Source: Bacteroides sp. Marseille-P3684 (GTDB lineage: Bacteria > Bacteroidota > Bacteroidia > Bacteroidales > Bacteroidaceae). Taken from it: a stretch of DNA of 64,000 bases. The notes under the pieces were generated by a model. It made no database searches and was not told where the DNA came from. It was given only the letters and a program-made list of their open reading frames with translations. Every line of letters starts with the position of its first letter. The stretch's first letter is position 1. The translations under genes were made by a program, and so were the position numbers. The DNA is taken from assembly GCF_900291465.1 (NCBI RefSeq), contig NZ_LT985808.1:2118575-2182574 (forward strand), read 5' to 3'. Of this stretch, positions 2 through 34,957 are shown piece by piece.

Positions 2-3000
2 TTGCCTTGGGTGAAAGATGAATCGGATGGGAAATATCATTTCCTTTTTCAGGACGCATTTCATGAAATGTGCGAAGACTTCCGTCAATCAGCTCCCCAA
101 TGGGTCGCCGACGGAAAGAAGGTGCCCTATGACTGGACCCTTTATTACCTACGCTGTAAAGCTTTGTCCCGTAAAATAAGCAAGGAGGAATTGGCTTGGA
201 TTCTGCTAAGTTTTAACCAAAAACGAGGATACTATCAGGCACGTGATGAAGAGGACGAAGTAACCACGAACAAGCTTGAAGAATATTATGCCGGAAAAGT
301 GGTTCGTGTGGATGATACAGGCGAACGGAAAGGGAAAAATGTCTACTATGACATAACGCTTGAAAACGGATGGGTATATCGGTATGCAGCCCGTATTTAT
401 CCCGACTGGGTGGGGCAAGTAAAGGAATTTATTGTTACGACAACGCTCAATCCGGATGGTACTCCTAAAACAGACAAGGCGGGCGAAGTGAAACGTTCCT
501 TCCGTATGCCTAAAGATGATGACTGGACCTTGATAAAGAAAAAGACGGAGAGGGATATCGACCGTTCGCAAGAAACCATTGGGCAATATATCTATCATGC
601 TTTATTGAAAGATCCATCACAGAAGATCAGAGGAAAGCTGATAGGTACGGTCGAACGTAAATATTATAAAGATGAACTGAGACGTATCTTGGATAGGCAG
701 ATTCAGTTCCATCCCGAGTTGCGGGACCGTGAATTGTATTATGCATGTTTGCAGGAGCTTTATCCCTCCAATGTGGCATTCCGGAATACATTGGTGAATC
801 GTGATTTTACTTATTTATTTTTGGATGATATACTCTTTTATCAACGTCCCCTTAAAAGCAAGAAGTCACAGATTAGTGACTGTCCTTATGAAGAACACTT
901 TTATACGGATAAGGAAACAGGAGAGCGTATATCGGTTCCCGTAAAATGTATCGCAGTCTCTCATCCTCTCTATCAGGAATACCGGTTGTGGCAGTTTATC
1001 CAGAACCTGCGTATCTATTGTAGAGAAGCACGTATCGATGGAAATTTGATGATTGACTGGGAAGTTACCGATGAATTGTTGCAGACGGAGGAGGACAAGA
1101 CTGCATTGTTCGATTGGCTGAATGACAAAGAGAGTGTGAAACAGCCGGAGTTGGTCGCATTTCTACTGGGAGGCAAGGCTAATAAAAAACAAATCAAGGC
1201 TTACCGGTGGAACTATATGGATGACGACACAAAGGGATATCCTTGCAATGAGACACGTGCAAGTCTCTTGAAATATCTGAGAGAGGCTCAAACAGACTCG
1301 TCCTTCCTAACTCGTGAACGGGAAGAAGCTCTATGGCATATCCTGTACTCTATATCCGACAAGGGAGAATTAAAGAGCGCTTTGGGTAAATTTGCTGTCA
1401 AGCATGGATTGGATGAAAGGTTTGTAACTGTCTTCAGCAAATTTCCGCCTTTTAAAAAGGATTATGGAAGCTATTCGGCAAAAGCACTTAAGAAGCTGTT
1501 GCCATTGATGCGCATGGGCCATCATTGGCAGGAAGCTTCCTTTATTCCTTCTACCCGTGAGCGTATGGAGAAATTCATTAATGGGGAGTATGATGATTCG
1601 ATTGATAAGCGCACTTATGAAAAATTAGAGAGTTTGACTGAGGTGTCACAATATCGTGGGCTCCCTGGCTGGTTGGCTTGCTATGTGGTTTATGACCGTC
1701 ATTCAGAAGGGAGGGATATAGAAATATGGACTTCTCCGTCTGACATCGATTCCTATTTGGCACAATTCAAGCAGCATTCGTTACACAATCCCATTGTGGA
1801 ACGTGTGGTCTTGGAAACTCTACGTACCGTGAGGGATATTTGGAAACAGGTAGACCATATTGATGAAATACATATCGAGTTGGGACGTAATATGAAGCTT
1901 CCGGCAGACAAACGTCGGCAGATGACCGAACAGGCGTGGAAAAACGAACAGACGAACTTACGCATCAAAGCATTATTGCTGGAATTTGCCAGACCGGGGT
2001 ATGACATAGAGAATGTACGTCCCTATTCGCCCTATCAGCAGGACCAGCTACGCATCTACGAAGAGGCTGTACTGGGTGCCAATGAATGCCCGGATGACAT
2101 CAGTGCCATATTGAAGAAGTTCAATGGACTCAATCCGCCGACTTCTGCGGAAGTCTTACGCTACAAGTGCTGGTTGGAACAGAAATACCGTTCACCCTAT
2201 ACGGGACGTACAATTCCGTTGAGCAAACTGTTTACTCCCGCTTATGAAATAGAACATATTATCCCAAAGCAACGCTATTTTGATGACTCCTTTAGCAATA
2301 AAGTCATTTGTGAGTCGGAAGTGAATAAGAAGAAAGGTGCCATGTTGGGGTATGAATTTATCAAGTCGTATCATGGAGCTTCCATTACCTTGAATATGGG
2401 AGGTACAGCTTCTATCTTTTCTGTAGAGGCTTATGAGAACTTCGTCAAGGAGCACTATGCTCATAATAGGGGCAAGATGAAAAAGCTGCTGATGGATGAT
2501 GTCCCCGACTCATTTATTTCACGTCAGCTAAATGACAGTCGCTACATCAGCAAGCTTATGAAATCCATATTATCTAACTTGGTTCGTGAAGAGGGTGAGA
2601 AAGAAGCTATTTCCAAGAATCTGATTGTGTGTACAGGAGGTATCACCGATCGTCTGAAGAAAGATTGGGGAATTCATGACGTATGGAATGACATCATCTT
2701 TCCACGCTTTAAGCGTTTGGATGAAATGGATAGCTCGCATACATACATTACCTTGAATACGCACCGTCATCCTATTCCCTCCATGCCGTTGGAGTTTCAA
2801 CGGGGCTTCAGCAAGAAACGGATCGATCACCGGCATCACGCCATGGATGCCATCGTGATAGCGTGTGCCACACGGAATATAGTCAATTATCTTAATAATG
2901 AATCTGCCCGGCATGATGCCAAGACCAGCCGGATGGATTTGCAAAGGTTGCTATGTACGGCAAATAGAAAATTGATAGACAAGCCTTGGAAGACTTTCAC

Positions 3001-4153
3001 GCAAGATACCTGTAAAGTTTTGGAAGATATGATTGTCAGCTTTCAGAGAACTCTGCGAATCATCAATAAAACGAAGAACTATTACTTGCGGTTTGAAGAT
3101 GGTAAGAAGCGAAGAGTCCTTCAGACGAAAGGTGAGAATTGGGCTATACGCAAACCTCTCCATAAAGAGACTTTTTATGGGGAAATTAACTTGCGCCGGA
3201 TTGAGACCCTTTCTCTAAACAAGGCATTGGAACGTATTCCTGATATTGTGGAAAGAGATTTAAGAAAGAAGTTAAGTGAATTGCTTAGCTTGGGTTATAA
3301 TGCCAAACGGATAAAAGGCTATTTCGAGGAACACAAGGAGGAATGGTCGGATGTGAACTTGTCAAAAATAAAGGCATATTATTTTACGAAGCAGAAAAAC
3401 AAGCGTTATTTTGCAGCTCGGACGGAACTTGATACATCTTTCAATAAGGATAAGATAGAGAATAAGATTGCTGATACGGCAATTCAGAAAATTCTGTTGC
3501 AACACTTGGAGGCTTATGGTAACGATGCTGAACAGGCTTTTTCCCCTGAAGGGATTGATACCATGAACCGGAATATTCGACAGCTGAATGGTGGACGTTC
3601 GCATCAACCGATCTATAAGGTCAGAGTCTATGAAGAAGCCACGAAGTTTGCAGTCGGACGAAGGGGAAATAAGTCGACTAAGTTTGTCGAGGCGGCTAAA
3701 GGTACCAACTTGTTCTTTGCTATTTATGAAATATCTCAAGTAGATGGGAATGGCAATAGACAGACGTCACGGACTTTCAGCAGTATTCCACTTAATGTCG
3801 CTGTTGAACGGTTGAAACAAGGACTGCCTCCAGTTCCGGAAGATGAAGAAGGAAATGCTCCCAAGTACGTGCTTTCTCCCAATGACCTGGTTTATCTTCC
3901 GACGGAAAGGGAACTGAAGCGGCGTGAGATAGCTATGCCGATAGATAAGTCTCGTATTTATAAGATGGTGAGTTGTACGGGAAAAGACTGCTTCTTTATC
4001 CCTGCGAATACAGCAGTACCTATTGTAGACAGGTATGAGTACTCTTCTATGAACAAAATTGGACGTGCTCTTACCGGTGAAATGATTAAAGAAATATGCC
4101 TACCGCTAAAAATTGATCGGCTAGGGCAGATTATTGAAATATCTACCTTCTAA
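2..4153 (+). CDS. cas9: Cas9 endonuclease, type II-C (5' end outside window)
   Basis: RNA-guided DNA endonuclease. The 1383 visible residues are open from the window edge; the first visible codon is an internal TTG, so the real start and the RuvC-I motif lie upstream (about 50-100 residues missing if it matches the roughly 1430-residue Bacteroides homologues). RuvC-II is seen near residue 620 (EIHIELGRNMKLP), the HNH nuclease near 750 (EIEHIIPKQRYFDDSFSNK, then NKKKG), and RuvC-III near 940 (DHRHHAMDAIVIA). A long C-terminal PAM-interacting region follows. All visible catalytic residues (Glu of RuvC-II, His-Ile-Ile-Pro of HNH, His/Asp of RuvC-III) are present, so it appears active. A decayed cas1 starts 11 nt downstream. 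The tracrRNA was not found in the window and probably lies upstream of cas9. Confidence 0.96.
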   Translation: MPWVKDESDGKYHFLFQDAFHEMCEDFRQSAPQWVADGKKVPYDWTLYYLRCKALSRKISKEELAWILLSFNQKRGYYQARDEEDEVTTNKLEEYYAGKVVRVDDTGERKGKNVYYDITLENGWVYRYAARIYPDWVGQVKEFIVTTTLNPDGTPKTDKAGEVKRSFRMPKDDDWTLIKKKTERDIDRSQETIGQYIYHALLKDPSQKIRGKLIGTVERKYYKDELRRILDRQIQFHPELRDRELYYACLQELYPSNVAFRNTLVNRDFTYLFLDDILFYQRPLKSKKSQISDCPYEEHFYTDKETGERISVPVKCIAVSHPLYQEYRLWQFIQNLRIYCREARIDGNLMIDWEVTDELLQTEEDKTALFDWLNDKESVKQPELVAFLLGGKANKKQIKAYRWNYMDDDTKGYPCNETRASLLKYLREAQTDSSFLTREREEALWHILYSISDKGELKSALGKFAVKHGLDERFVTVFSKFPPFKKDYGSYSAKALKKLLPLMRMGHHWQEASFIPSTRERMEKFINGEYDDSIDKRTYEKLESLTEVSQYRGLPGWLACYVVYDRHSEGRDIEIWTSPSDIDSYLAQFKQHSLHNPIVERVVLETLRTVRDIWKQVDHIDEIHIELGRNMKLPADKRRQMTEQAWKNEQTNLRIKALLLEFARPGYDIENVRPYSPYQQDQLRIYEEAVLGANECPDDISAILKKFNGLNPPTSAEVLRYKCWLEQKYRSPYTGRTIPLSKLFTPAYEIEHIIPKQRYFDDSFSNKVICESEVNKKKGAMLGYEFIKSYHGASITLNMGGTASIFSVEAYENFVKEHYAHNRGKMKKLLMDDVPDSFISRQLNDSRYISKLMKSILSNLVREEGEKEAISKNLIVCTGGITDRLKKDWGIHDVWNDIIFPRFKRLDEMDSSHTYITLNTHRHPIPSMPLEFQRGFSKKRIDHRHHAMDAIVIACATRNIVNYLNNESARHDAKTSRMDLQRLLCTANRKLIDKPWKTFTQDTCKVLEDMIVSFQRTLRIINKTKNYYLRFEDGKKRRVLQTKGENWAIRKPLHKETFYGEINLRRIETLSLNKALERIPDIVERDLRKKLSELLSLGYNAKRIKGYFEEHKEEWSDVNLSKIKAYYFTKQKNKRYFAARTELDTSFNKDKIENKIADTAIQKILLQHLEAYGNDAEQAFSPEGIDTMNRNIRQLNGGRSHQPIYKVRVYEEATKFAVGRRGNKSTKFVEAAKGTNLFFAIYEISQVDGNGNRQTSRTFSSIPLNVAVERLKQGLPPVPEDEEGNAPKYVLSPNDLVYLPTERELKRREIAMPIDKSRIYKMVSCTGKDCFFIPANTAVPIVDRYEYSSMNKIGRALTGEMIKEICLPLKIDRLGQIIEISTF

Positions 4154-4164
4154 AATATAGCCTT

Positions 4165-4966
<802 letters not shown>

Positions 4967-6814
4967 AAGAGGGTGTGTCGTAATAAGCGATGCACCTTCT
5001 TTCTTTCGTCAATTACAAAAGAAAAGTTCGCTATCTTCAAGCAGCGATATGTTGAAGATTTCTTTGATTTATGTGTTCCCTGCATCTGAAGAAAGCGGCT
5101 GTAAGCTCACAAAACAGTTTAATCAGCCAGTCTATGCCTTCTTTTCTCATCTTTGCACATAACTTTTTTATATTAAAGGCAATGGCAAGGAAGGAGAAGT
5201 CCATAAAGACCTTGTCCTTTCCAAAATGGCGGAAACGTTTGTAGTTCATGTTATATTTTATCTGCCCGAATACGGCTTCCGGTTCTATGCATCTTCGTCC
5301 CCTGTGTTTCAGCCCTTCCTCGGAGCAGAGCAACTCTTTGGCTTTTTGCTTGTATTTCCTGAGCCTGTGGTTCAGTTCTATTGTCCTGTCCCCTTTTGCT
5401 TTAAAACATAGACACCTTAGCGGGCAGCCTTCGCACCTGACAGCCCTGTATCTGGCACTTTCGCTCACATATCCGGATGCGGTTTTCACATGCCTGTTTC
5501 CTATCCTCCGCATCTTTTGTCCCATGGGGCATACGCAATAGTCATGTTCTTCATTGTAGTAGAAGTTTTCAGCCTTGAACGGGTCGGGTCTGAATCTCGG
5601 CCGTTGCTCCATGTGGAAGTAATTGTATTTGACGTAAGCTTCCATGCCGTTTTCTGCCATGAAGCGGTAATTTTCCTCGGAGCCGTAGCCCGAATCAGCC
5701 ACTACTGTATGGGCCAGCCTGTCGTATCTGTTTGAGAAGGATTGCAGGAAAGGTATCATAGTCAGCGTGTCCGTAGGGTTGGGAAAAAGTGCAAAATCGG
5801 TAATGAACTGGTTCTCGGTGGCAATCTGAAGGTTGTAACCGGGTTTGGTCTGTCCGTTACGCATGGCATCCTCCTTCATCCTCATGAAAGTGGCATCCTT
5901 GTCCGTCTTGGAATAGGAGTTGCGCTCCTGCAGCGTGTCCAGATGATTGTCGTATTCCTGCAGCTTGTCCCTGTGCGCTTCCAGTTCTTTCAGCTGCCTG
6001 CGTTTCTTTCTTTGTGCGGCCTTCTCCTCTTTTGTGGAAGGCTCGGGAACCTGTTCAAGCGCATTGCGCAGTTCGCCCGCCATTTCGGTCAGCATGGCTG
6101 GGGTAAACTCAACTTCCTCATTGTTTTCCGGTGATTTCTCCTGGGCGATGGCATCGTCTATCTGACCCAACAGGACATGGATTTTCTTCATCAGGCGTTC
6201 ACGGTTCCGCTCGACGGTCTTTTTCCACACGAAAGTATACTTGTTGGCCTTGGATTCAATCTTCGTTCCGTCAATATATTCCACGTTCAGGCTGATGAAC
6301 CCTTTGGCGGAAAGCAGAAGGACGATTTGGGTGAATACTTCGTTGATTTCCTTCTTCACGCGGTTGCGGAAGCGGTTGATGGTAATGAAGTCCGGTTTCT
6401 CGTGCCCGGCCAGCCATATATAATGGATGTCGCGGTGGAGGAGTTTTTCTATCTTGCGGCAGGAGTAGATGTTGTTCATATAGGCGTACAGGATGACCTT
6501 GAGCATCATTCGGGGATGGTAAGGGCTACGGCCGCATTCCTTATATAACTTCCTGAAACCTTCCAGATTCAGGCTCTCAACAAGGGCGTCAACCATGCGT
6601 ACCGGATCGTTCTTTGCAATATCCTCATCGATTCTTTGAGGAAACAGCACTGTTTGGTTGGGAATGTAAGGACGAAAATGTATCTTTGTCATAAGATTAT
6701 TTTTGTTATAATGCTTAAAGATACAAAATCTTTAGGTAATAGCAAAGCCTCGGCTTGTGAAAGTCGGGGCTTTGTGCATAAAAAAAGAAGGTGCGCTTTT
6801 TGACACACCTTCTT
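4967..6814 (-). mobile_element. IS1182-family insertion sequence
   Basis: Complete-looking element of about 1.85 kb with one transposase gene. The left end starts AAGAGGGTGTGTCG and continues to GATGCACCTTCTT; the right end reads AAGAAGGTGCGC, then GACACACCTTCTT. The two are imperfect inverted copies, and each end is itself partly palindromic. I could not define a target duplication by eye. It separates cas2 from the CRISPR leader, leaving about 70 bp (6815-6884) between its right end and the first repeat. A second, truncated end of the same type lies beyond the array at 8199-8270, and a similar end-like palindrome at 19276-19310. Confidence 0.85.
5037..6692 (-). CDS. IS1182-family DDE transposase
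   Basis: Full-length 551-residue transposase. The N-terminal region (about residues 25-105) matches the DUF772/InsH-type domain (RSPYHPRMMLKVILYAYMNN, ITINRFR). The catalytic triad is recognisable: YIDGTKIES, VVADSGYGSEENY, and an Asp-Glu segment near EPEAVFGQIKYNMNYKRF. A cysteine cluster (CVCPMGQK, CEGCPLRCLC) near residue 400 is typical of the family. No frameshift or stop is seen, so the element may still move. It reads against the cas genes. Confidence 0.93.
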   Translation of the reverse strand: MTKIHFRPYIPNQTVLFPQRIDEDIAKNDPVRMVDALVESLNLEGFRKLYKECGRSPYHPRMMLKVILYAYMNNIYSCRKIEKLLHRDIHYIWLAGHEKPDFITINRFRNRVKKEINEVFTQIVLLLSAKGFISLNVEYIDGTKIESKANKYTFVWKKTVERNRERLMKKIHVLLGQIDDAIAQEKSPENNEEVEFTPAMLTEMAGELRNALEQVPEPSTKEEKAAQRKKRRQLKELEAHRDKLQEYDNHLDTLQERNSYSKTDKDATFMRMKEDAMRNGQTKPGYNLQIATENQFITDFALFPNPTDTLTMIPFLQSFSNRYDRLAHTVVADSGYGSEENYRFMAENGMEAYVKYNYFHMEQRPRFRPDPFKAENFYYNEEHDYCVCPMGQKMRRIGNRHVKTASGYVSESARYRAVRCEGCPLRCLCFKAKGDRTIELNHRLRKYKQKAKELLCSEEGLKHRGRRCIEPEAVFGQIKYNMNYKRFRHFGKDKVFMDFSFLAIAFNIKKLCAKMRKEGIDWLIKLFCELTAAFFRCREHINQRNLQHIAA

Positions 6815-6884
6815 TGAAACAGCTTTTTTTATTTTCCTAATAGAGCCTTTAACTTGTTTATATTCAGAGAATAACATATAATCT
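6815..6884. other. AT-rich spacer between IS and CRISPR array, probable residual leader
   Basis: Seventy A/T-rich bases separate the IS right end from the first intact repeat. Decayed repeats cluster at the opposite end of the array, so in usual arrays this side would be the leader where new spacers enter. It contains a small palindrome (TATTCAGAGAATA). No anti-repeat that could mark a tracrRNA was seen here. Confidence 0.45.
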
Positions 6885-7909
6885 GCTGTCTCTGATGGCT
6901 CAAAGGTAGTAATTTAGAAGCAAATCACAACGATAGAAGTAACAACTTGGAATGTTGTCGCGCTGTCTCTGATGGCTCAAAGGTAGTAATTTAGAAGCAA
7001 ATCACAACACTTCGACGACCGCCTGTACATCGCCGACCGCTGTCTCTGATGGCTCAAAGGTAGTAATTTAGAAGCAAATCACAACGGTTCGACCATCGGA
7101 GGAATGACCGGATACGCTGTCTCTGATGGCTCAAAGGTAGTAATTTAGAAGCAAATCACAACTGGTAGTAATCATCCTCATTCACGGTAAGGGCTGTCTC
7201 TGATGGCTCAAAGGTAGTAATTTAGAAGCAAATCACAACGCGCTCCGACAGGGCGGTCATGAAGCGAGGGCTGTCTCTGATGGCTCAAAGGTAGTAATTT
7301 AGAAGCAAATCACAACGACTAGAAATTTTCCACCATACTGAACGATGCTGTCTCTGATGGCTCAAAGGTAGTAATTTAGAAGCAAATCACAACAGCCTCT
7401 TACGGTAGCCGTCATAATCGTTGGCTGTCTCTGATGGCTCAAAGGTAGTAATTTAGAAGCAAATCACAACTCCGGCGGATGCGCTTCTCGTAGTCCTCGT
7501 GCTGTCTCTGATGGCTCAAAGGTAGTAATTTAGAAGCAAATCACAACGGCGTCGAGGAAGTCGTCAACGGTCTGACCGCTGTCTCTGATGGCTCAAAGGT
7601 AGTAATTTAGAAGCAAATCACAACGACCCATGAAGAATGGATAAAACATTTATGGCTGTCTCTGATGGCTCAAAGGTAGTAATTTAGAAGCAAATCACAA
7701 CTAAATCCTCCATGTGGAATTATGAGTTCCAGCTGTCTCTGATAGCTCAAAGGTAGTAATTTAGAAGCAAATCACAACCATCCGCAACACGTCCGATTTT
7801 GACTGCGTGCTGTCTCTGATAGCTCAAAGGTAGTAATTTAGAAGCAAATCACAACTAGAAGCGCGCAACAGCATGATTGACAAAAGCTGTCTCTGATAGC
7901 TCAAAAGTA
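6885..7909 (-). CRISPR. Type II-C CRISPR array: 13 full repeats, 1 decayed repeat, 13 spacers
   Basis: Repeats of 47 nt start every 77 bp at 6885, 6962, 7039, 7116, 7193, 7270, 7347, 7424, 7501, 7578, 7655, 7732 and 7809, with a truncated copy at 7886-7909. All 13 spacers are 30 nt and all differ. Repeats 1-11 are identical; 12, 13 and the partial 14 share a G-to-A change (GATAGCTC for GATGGCTC), marking the right end as the old end. The crRNA sense is inferred to be the minus strand, where the repeat begins GTTGTGATTTGC as in other Bacteroides II-C systems. On that strand every repeat contains TTG, 19 nt, TACCTTTG, a Bacteroides-type promoter. The last, decayed repeat keeps a matching TACTTTTG (7902-7909). 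With cas1 broken the array is probably frozen. Confidence 0.97.
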
Positions 7910-8198
7910 CAATTAGAGTTCGGGAAGATCGAGTGAGCTCCGTTCCAGGGCGGCAGCCAACGCGGCAGAGGCATCGTCACCATCCACCTGGTGACCGACT
8001 GGACATAGGGCGGGCACGATGCAGCCTTCGACCTCAGCCATCGGCTCTATAAGGCTCTGACGGACTGAGTGGAGAGAGCTTTAACGGACGTCGCTGTTGG
8101 AGACGAACACGAACCACAACCACGAGGAGATACTTGAGAGTATTGACAGCTATGCCGTGCGTTACCTGTTAAGATAGGGCGCACGAGTTGCAAGGATG
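7910..8198. pseudogene. GC-rich decayed coding remnant between array and orphan IS end
   Basis: About 290 bp clearly richer in G and C than its surroundings. One plus-strand frame gives protein-like stretches interrupted by stops (RGIVTIHLVTDW, then GGHDAAFDLSHRLYKALTD, then VERALTDVAVGDEHEP). A shifted frame ends EEILESIDSYAVRYLLR and a stop near 8174. I do not recognise the family. Best read as the tail of a foreign gene broken by frameshifts and stops, perhaps left by the rearrangement that also left the IS end. It is too degraded to assign a product. Confidence 0.35.
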
Positions 8199-19316: not shown

Positions 19317-19972
19317 GTACGCTCGACATGAGTGTTGTCTAACGGGTGCAAGTCCCGAGTAAGCCCTAATAGCGGGAATTACATAGCTCAAGGTAAGGGT
19401 GCTCACCGCGAGGTGAAATCTGAAGGAAGCCGTCGGCAAATATCTGACCTGACGAACAGAAACTTCATACAAGGCATTTAACCATGGATAAGATTACATC
19501 ACAAATCAAAATCCCATAGCTATTCGGAATGGTTGGGTGTAAATGAAGCAGGTATAAGATTGAAAGACAACGCTCTTATTCGAGGAGGTCTCACGGACGT
19601 ACAGAATGTCTTATGAAAAGTACGGAGTAAAGCTTATCGTGAGAAGTCAGCAGATGCCATAGTACCTAAGGCACGTGTGCCTACGGGGAAGGGCAGAATC
19701 GAGCAGTGCAAAAGTAAATGACTGCTACCCTGCGAGTCTTTTGTAGTCAGATGTCCGAAAGGAACTCTCTATTCAAACGATAGGACGGAATCCGACAATA
19801 GGATAGAAGTGACGTTACTCAATGGTATAGCTGAAAACAACTTGCCACACATCGCAAGATGAGAAAGCTCGAAACCGCCGTATGCCGAACGGCACGTACG
19901 GTGGTGTGAGAGGTCGGTAAATACGAAAGTAGGAGATAAATGCCTATGATTAGTATTTACCTCCTACTCGAT
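19317..19972 (+). mobile_element. ORF-less group II intron
   Basis: About 656 nt with group II intron hallmarks. The 5' region (GTACGCTCGACATGAGTG, then AACGGGTGCAAGTCCCGAG) resembles domain I. Domain V is at 19874-19905: ACCGCCGTATGCC pairs with GGCACGTACGGTGGT around a GAAC loop with the usual two-base bulge and a CGC triad. Domain VI follows: GGTAAATAC pairs with GTATTTACC, then CCTACTCGAT with the likely branch-point A and the 3' end. No reverse transcriptase/maturase reading frame is present, so it cannot move alone; splicing could occur with a protein supplied in trans. The exact 5' boundary is tentative because GTACG departs from the usual GTGCG. Domain VI carries an unusual extra A-rich insertion in its loop. 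Confidence 0.75.
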
Positions 19973-34480: not shown

Positions 34481-34580
34481 TTGTGCGGATGAGTTTTTCC
34501 CCTTACATTTGCAATGTGTTTTTCATAGTATTAGATTTAAGGTTAAGTAAAGGTTGGGTCAAAGCGTTGACCCTTTTTTT
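34481..34580 (+). ncRNA. Candidate small RNA with own promoter and terminator
   Basis: A complete small transcription unit with no convincing reading frame. The promoter is TTG (34481-34483), 20 nt, TACATTTG (34504-34511). The predicted RNA starts near 34516 and ends at an intrinsic terminator GGGTCAA-AGCG-TTGACCC plus seven T (34556-34580), so it is about 65 nt. The middle (TTTTTCATAGTATTAGATT, then TAAGGTTAA) looks like a sequence I associate with conserved Bacteroidales small RNAs of the Bacteroidales-1 type, but I cannot confirm that. The overlapping 88-codon frame runs through the terminator and is rejected. Confidence 0.6.
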
Positions 34581-34957
34581 ATGTCCTTTCGTTTCTGTTG
34601 CACAGTCAGTCATCGTTCTTCATTCATTCCGTTTAGCATCAGCCTTGAATTTATCGTGCAATGATTTGAAAAGAGTCTTTCAAGGATGCTCTGGCTCAAT
34701 CTGCCAAAGGCAAATGGCAAGCATTTTGTAGGCATTTAAAGAGACGTTTGCCGGCGGTTTGATGACAGGAAGTAATTTCGGCAATTTTTTTACAATTGTC
34801 AAGAGATAGGATTGGTACATCATTTTTAATAAAAGCTTGGCGAAACAGCCCTGTTATTAGAATCGGTTACATCTGTAAACCTATCAAAAAAACATTAAAT
34901 TTGCCGGTGCTCTCCGTAATTTATAGATTTTTTGTATCATTCTTCGTTAAGAATACG
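34581..34957. other. AT-rich intergenic region before the DsbD-type gene
   Basis: About 375 bp of low-complexity, AT-rich sequence with no convincing gene or strong hairpin. The promoter of the next gene lies at its right end. Confidence 0.5.

Follow-up and report, generated by a model that had tools for sequence, protein, structure and literature searches.

The window, a 64,000-nt stretch of the genome of Bacteroides sp. Marseille-P3684, begins inside a type II CRISPR-Cas locus. Type II-C loci are defined by the presence of cas9, cas1, and cas2 only, with csn2 and cas4 absent. Of these genes, cas9 and cas2 were identified in the window, and cas1 as a remnant (the C-terminal part plus 24 codons); with cas1 reduced to this extent, the locus has probably lost the capacity to acquire spacers on its own. 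Its features are as follows.

2..4153, plus strand: cas9, type II, with its start upstream of the window; 1500 aa in L012; TIGR01865, E 1.8e-122
4165..4628, plus strand: cas1 remnant, 24 N-terminal codons followed by the C-terminal third only (positions 196-277 of 278 of the cas1_NMENI profile)
4625..4966, plus strand: cas2 (TIGR01573)
5037..6692, minus strand: IS1182-family transposase, between cas2 and the leader-like sequence
6783..6816, no strand: inverted repeat between the array and the cas side, scored as a terminator in the crRNA sense
6825..6884, minus strand: leader-like sequence, at the 3' end of the array in the crRNA sense
6885..7855, minus strand: CRISPR array of 13 intact repeats (47 nt each) with 12 spacers of 30 nt between them
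6896..6930, minus strand: example promoter of one repeat; TTG 6930-6928, -7 box TACCTTTG 6908-6901, predicted +1 at A 6896
7886..7932, minus strand: vestige of a repeat at the 5' terminus; -7 box TACTTTTG retained (7909-7902), positions 1-17 degraded

The window Cas9 also matched RuvC_III and HNH_4, hence RuvC and HNH are both present, and the inverted repeat may be part of the IS1182 element. Read on the minus strand, the repeat is GTTGTGATTTGCTTCTAAATTACTACCTTTGAGCCATCAGAGACAGC; the intact copies follow each other at an exact spacing of 77 nt, and a 13th spacer separates them from the vestige. The two upstream-most intact repeats carry one changed base, outside the box, and 11 repeats reached the cut-off of Rfam CRISPR-DR49. 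An earlier note on this DNA had read each repeat as carrying TTG at positions 2-4, 19 nt, and a -7 box at 24-31. This arrangement, with TACCTTTG as the box, was seen in 13/13 intact repeats, the layout of the example recurring in the other 12 at 77-nt steps. The same note had described a decayed last repeat that lost its tracrRNA-pairing half and retained a -7 box. Loss and retention were both evident, but transcription would reach the vestige before any other repeat, and its -33 element is gone as well: no TTG lies at N19-21 upstream of TACTTTTG, leaving only the -7 box intact. A blastn search of the spacers of the window array against 50,697 phage records returned no match, which made a PAM-based check of the strand impossible.

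Related arrays or repeat remnants were also located elsewhere in the genome, at G000:C1:2710477-2710886 (L009), approximately 2903000-2903115 (L010), and 3471501-3471855 (L011). Their repeats have a box that differs from the window's at a free base, and one internal repeat of L011, a solitary array, has TATCGTTG. The vestige and 5' flank are common to L009 and the window array, as if duplicated. The leader-like type of flank was likewise found at the 3' end of further arrays in this genome and in other species.

The available text of PMC7366714 and PMC12632263 describes the Bacteroides sigma-ABfr promoter as a pair of -33 and -7 elements, the latter TAnnTTTG; PMC7366714 also notes the lack of an annotated CRISPR array in B. 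thetaiotaomicron. We scrutinized the window for TTG-N19..21-TAnnTTTG and found 25 sites, 13 in repeats and 12 elsewhere, 3 of these inside ORFs; the chance level was 1.8 in mononucleotide shuffles of the window without the array. The sites included all promoters that the earlier note had assigned to rpsP (N19) and, at N20, to the units it named efflux, YeiH, acyl-CoA synthetase, and galM-galK (all gene names are that note's). Group II intron RNA domains lie near rpsP, at 19402-19972. Across 90 tandem gene gaps, sampled from the window and 20 further stretches of 20 kb of the same genome, TAnnTTTG occurred 40 times in sense and 11 times in antisense, compared with 4.3 in shuffles, and was the most strand-asymmetric gapped pattern of its form upstream of genes. 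TTG was located 20 nt upstream of the tandem-gap box in 10/40 cases and 19 nt upstream in 1/40.

The window repeats thus have the -33/-7 layout and TAnnTTTG in common with the sigma-ABfr promoter. Unlike an ordinary promoter of this kind, a copy is present in every CRISPR unit, and the base after TTTG in the window repeat is A, not the Y to which the -7 consensus extends in the portion of PMC12632263 at hand (TANNTTTGY). Among the strict long repeats of Bacteroidia (defined below), Y followed TTTG in 26/58, versus 73/82 tracrRNA promoters. An Rfam match to the FopS sRNA (window 34481-34583) starts 5 nt after the G of a TTG-N20-TACATTTG promoter. By analogy with this start at G+5, which is a model boundary and not a mapped end, the +1 of the repeats is predicted at position 36. 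A purine occupied G+5 in 48/57, versus 13 at G+4 and 19 at G+6.

Upstream of genes in the CRISPR loci of other genomes, a sense excess of the full motif was absent. Sense and antisense counts of TTG-N18..22-TAnnTTTG were 23/37 in the window's family, 6/15 in the rest of the class, and 5/11 in other classes, those of TAnnTTTG alone being 91/69, 28/34, and 29/24 in the same three groups. Only the window itself gave a sense excess in this test (5/1 for the full motif, 13/4 for the box alone). Our guess is that tracrRNA genes lying antisense upstream of cas9, together with incompletely masked arrays, account for the missing excess.

To compare repeats, Cas9 loci were gathered regardless of their repeats, from 101 family genomes, of which 43 exceeded the family cut-off, and from 394 genomes of the phylum, of which 65 exceeded it. 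The regions studied comprised 100 chosen from Cas9 matches and the best 80 named loci of one scan; in 26/80 named loci no array was found, and L135 was left out because it lacked a repeat start. A script extracted the arrays, and four doubly fetched loci were removed from the flank, hairpin, vestige, within-array substitution, box-association, tracrRNA-pairing, polarity, and tree counts. In the window's family, TAnnTTTG was present in 25 of 28 arrays with 47-nt repeats (two of them from the window's genome), 24 also having TTG at 2-4, and in 0/10 arrays with 29-36-nt repeats. Of 88 unique long Bacteroidia repeats, one of which (L123) is only 32 nt, 58 had a strict TAnnTTTG at N18-22 (57 after TTG, one after CTG) and 78 had the box at 5 of 6 positions or better, leaving ten without it. 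Shuffling positions 18 to the end gave means of 0.3 strict and 4.9 at 5/6, with maxima of 4 and 15. TAnnTTTG was the commonest gapped pattern of its form in these repeats when clusters were weighted, and it occurred on the opposite strand in 0/88. The spacing in front of the strict box was mostly N19 (42 repeats), with N18 in 4, N20 in 5, N21 in 4, and N22 in 3. Many non-strict repeats end in TTTA or TTAG, and most of these belong to families other than the window's.

Among 16 unique short Bacteroidia repeats, none had a strict box and 2 had one at 5/6; in other classes of the phylum the strict box was found in 2/23 unique repeats. TTG at 2-4 was present in 87/88 long repeats. Since 16/16 short repeats without a strict box carry it too, TTG is uninformative and the -7 box constitutes the evidence; a comparison of -33 elements was dropped for the same reason. 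The comparison proposed in the earlier note, whether related repeats conserve TAnnTTTG more than their other parts, came out in favor of the box, which also changed less than its neighbors (see below). In other classes, L071-L075, L082, L084, and L085 have 45-46-nt repeats with TTCTTTGA or similar at the place of the box, without TA. Six of these loci had a tracrRNA match, and none of the six had a strict TAnnTTTG before it.

The repeats are related by descent, with single linkage at 80% placing 70/88 in one cluster, and 6/17 repeat clusters are mainly strict (one of the 17 is a mis-oriented row). Shared ancestry alone would make the box a frozen stretch of an ancestral repeat with no present function, and both this homology and the 45-46-nt repeats of other classes that share TTCTTTGA or similar without TA are in its favor. 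We counted parsimony steps per repeat column on a tree of 64 HMM-verified Cas9s. Box columns took 10.2 steps, the two nn columns 16.5, columns 18-23 12.5, and columns 32-42 22.7 (box versus the other three sets together, one-sided Mann-Whitney p 0.004), and the strict box was present in 48/64 tips with 11 changes. On the same tree, then, positions 32-42 changed about twice as often as the box, its free bases changed more than its specified ones, and across repeats the spacing shifts while the box stays, all of which makes mere ancestry exceedingly improbable. An earlier version of the tree and of the polarity counts took the longest ORF as cas9; the HMM-found Cas9 gave the same outcome. Substitutions within arrays (1 of 468 box sites, p 0.47) were too rare to test conservation.

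No tracrRNA was found by an ungapped scan of an 18-kb stretch around the window cas9. The candidate for the system lies approximately 1.26 Mb away, at G000:C1:854016-854046 (L233, L234), behind a TATCTTTG box; it is the genome's only match to the tracrRNA motif used (3 mismatches) and pairs with repeat positions 1-16 at -23.6 kcal/mol. Overall, a conserved downstream motif yielded 117 tracrRNA matches, 92 of which had TAnnTTTG within 70 nt upstream; within 45 nt, the box occurred 92 times in sense and 3 times in antisense. TTG preceded the tracrRNA box at N19 in 21/82 and at N20 in 24/82, together 45/82. Within Bacteroidia, a strict tracrRNA box and a strict repeat box go together (47/5/15/11, p 0.002), although L016, L134, L144, L163, and L183 have a strict tracrRNA promoter and no 5/6 box in the repeat.

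Conservation of the box columns could instead reflect pairing with the tracrRNA, or recognition by Cas1-Cas2. We examined predicted pairing in 45 loci with a strict box in both the repeat and the tracrRNA promoter. With the tracrRNA starting at G+5, T24 pairs with its predicted first base in 34/45 loci, and the predicted pairing ends at this first box base in 32/45; A25 pairs in 2/45, rising to 14/45 if the start is one base earlier, at G+4. If upstream, probably untranscribed sequence is counted, pairing reaches into the box in 61/69. TTTG, however, pairs in no locus for any start from G+4 to G+7. The 16 unique short Bacteroidia repeats, in which the strict box is lacking, also speak against a need for it in pairing or in Cas1-Cas2 recognition, as do the decayed terminal repeats described next, and we regard this explanation as very unlikely.

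In long arrays, the handle of the 5'-terminal repeat belongs to no crRNA. Searching for vestigial repeats by the last 12 repeat bases alone, we found them in 29 of 90 arrays, with 37 lacking one and 24 running off the contig. In the 25 vestiges with a boxed consensus, substitutions per site were 0.65 in positions 1-17, 0.31 from 18 to the box, 0.14 in the specified box bases versus 0.30 in the free ones (p 0.02), and 0.12 after the box. The stretch after the box is thus preserved at least as well as the box itself, which did not differ significantly from nn and that stretch taken together (p 0.35). A box at 5/6 or better was kept in 20/25, away from the conserved flank, which is the point that weighs against Cas1-Cas2 recognition and pairing alike; of the five counted as lost, L098 has an intact box shifted by one base. 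TTG survives in 1/29 vestiges. In those of B. faecis (L119) and L103, changes in the box are confined to the free bases. Short arrays of the family retain the first repeat half at their 3' end in 6/10, L028 (masked bases) and L023 (an indel) being doubtful. The vestige pattern of the long arrays fits a first repeat that would need its box; case by case, abrupt replacement upstream of the box may have produced it.

The crRNA strand was set from the repeat start and checked by tracrRNA pairing where a tracrRNA was found. With Cas9 identified by HMM, 41/41 cas9-linked long Bacteroidia arrays of the first, regional set run opposite to cas9, as do 47/49 long arrays of the named set, the exceptions being L134, which has no box, and L153, which has one and whose array lies upstream of cas9. 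The 47-nt arrays of the window's family are convergent with the cas operon in 27/27 and have decayed repeats at the 5' end, whereas the 29-36-nt arrays run with cas9 in 10/10 and have them at the 3' end. A further 11 short arrays comprise 8 in the direction of cas9 and 3 against it, and two of the latter have a 5/6 box. In a box-less group of 18 arrays, decay was at the 3' end in 8, at the 5' end in 3, and equal in 5.

Were a single precursor to start in the 5' flank, from a promoter on the side away from cas, the -7-like box would be incidental. L107 lends this some support, its vestige having lost the box in register while TATTTTTG lies just upstream. Yet in long arrays conservation is absent from the 5' flanks (mean identity 0.279, with only 0.6% of pairs reaching 0.5) and is instead found in the 3' flanks (0.364, 14.8%); so conserved a box would, moreover, need another reason. 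A single precursor is hence an improbable explanation. Within 150 nt of the 3' end, 59/89 arrays have terminator-like hairpins (46/89 for the opposite strand), compared with 6/62 at the 5' end. With the strand assigned as above, the crRNA strand runs into the leader-like 3' flank, where a promoter could not serve it, and we infer from flanks and strand assignment that the arrays are transcribed towards this flank. When short arrays are pooled, their 3' flank is likewise better conserved than the 5' one (0.408 vs 0.308).

A rule by which arrays without the box have a 5' leader was considered and rejected, failing for eight 36-nt arrays of the class (L050, L051, L054, L055, L058, L059, L060, and L063), which have no box and a 3' flank that is conserved by eye. 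Folding with the tracrRNA region supports the strand in all of these but L054, i.e. 7 loci. The eight belong to one repeat sequence family, Flavobacterium-like by comparison with the available part of PMC8092290.

Considering the repeats, their relatives, and the vestiges together, a sigma-ABfr promoter in each repeat that starts near A36 and drives the next spacer is, in our judgment, highly probable, and would be the Bacteroidota version of the Neisseria II-C arrangement. The earlier note's reading of promoters inside the repeats thus gains support from the comparison, with the amendment that the conserved, leader-like flank sits at the 3' end. The 47-nt repeat would be a composite module, in which positions 1 to approximately 23 form the handle that pairs with the tracrRNA, TAnnTTTG at 24-31 serves as the -7 box, and the -33 TTG falls within the first bases of the handle. 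A transcript starting near A36 would cross the final 12 nt of its repeat and then the spacer and handle that follow, and any newly added spacer-repeat unit would bring its own promoter. That RNA polymerase starts at the box, the exact +1, and the maturation of these transcripts into crRNAs are what we infer from sequence comparison.

Going one step further, the long II-C repeat of Bacteroidia may have three parts, a tracrRNA handle, a -7 box, and a start site, with the handle doubling as the spacer between -33 and -7; we lean towards this view with some reserve. If correct, it would account for a repeat length of mostly 46-50 nt instead of 36, and every spacer would be read equally whatever its age, with arrays growing at the 3' end of transcription. 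Should the division of arrays by repeat length and -7 box (see below) hold, equal expression of all spacers would become a testable prediction, and for many Bacteroidota genomes the sequence could tell how an array is oriented and which elements are its leader and tracrRNA. For native Cas9 tools in Bacteroides, a repeat might also supply promoter and handle as one ready-made part.

In the Neisseria arrangement, the repeat is 36 nt long. In the type II-C array of Neisseria meningitidis, a promoter was reportedly found inside each repeat by Zhang et al. in 2013. The accessible text of PMC7038990, PMC5006608, and PMC8092290 describes such Neisseria II-C promoters. According to PMC7038990, the C. 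cellulolyticum repeat resembles that of Neisseria in having an extended -10 in its last nine bases. The window array shares with Neisseria a promoter sequence inside every repeat, but there it is an extended -10 at the repeat end, whereas the 47-nt repeat has a Bacteroidota -7 box midway along its length and a predicted start 12 nt before its end. As Neisseria uses a different promoter element elsewhere in the repeat, in-repeat promoters would have arisen at least twice, on different sigma recognition sequences.

Within the phylum, the idea is partly in print for Flavobacterium, with TTG only. For the II-C arrays of Flavobacterium columnare and F. psychrophilum, excerpts of PMC8092290 and PMC10309648 propose a TTG promoter encoded in the repeat, with transcription heading for the leader or variable end. 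Eight reads are mentioned for the F. columnare array, and TTG is the sole promoter element cited in the repeats. The eight Flavobacterium-like 36-nt arrays of the class, unlike the window repeat, lack TAnnTTTG. Riemerella anatipestifer CRISPR1 resembles the window locus in its 47-bp repeats and cas9-cas1-cas2 (PMC5006608 and PMC6008519, as far as available), a comparison made by description. In the available part of PMC6008519, new spacers were shown experimentally to enter at the cas2 side. In the corresponding part of PMC5006608, no potential promoter was found in the repeats, and BDGP is named as the predictor used on the leader. The portion of PMC12638026 at hand, a 2025 study, cites 3'-end acquisition as general among II-C arrays, finds that orientation tools disagree on them, and suggests subgroups with different acquisition ends. 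In the literature searched, mostly without subscription papers and partly as excerpts, we found no report of a -7 box inside Bacteroidota repeats.

The presence of the box, the length of the repeat, and the polarity of the array are associated and split the type II arrays of one family into two kinds, candidate subgroups of 47-nt convergent versus 29-36-nt co-directional arrays. The host genome also encodes a second, shorter Cas9 ORF of 1232 aa (G000:C1:3601955-3605455, L025), accompanied by a 36-nt array without the box. This array is co-directional with its cas9, and decay in relatives of that kind points to the opposite polarity.
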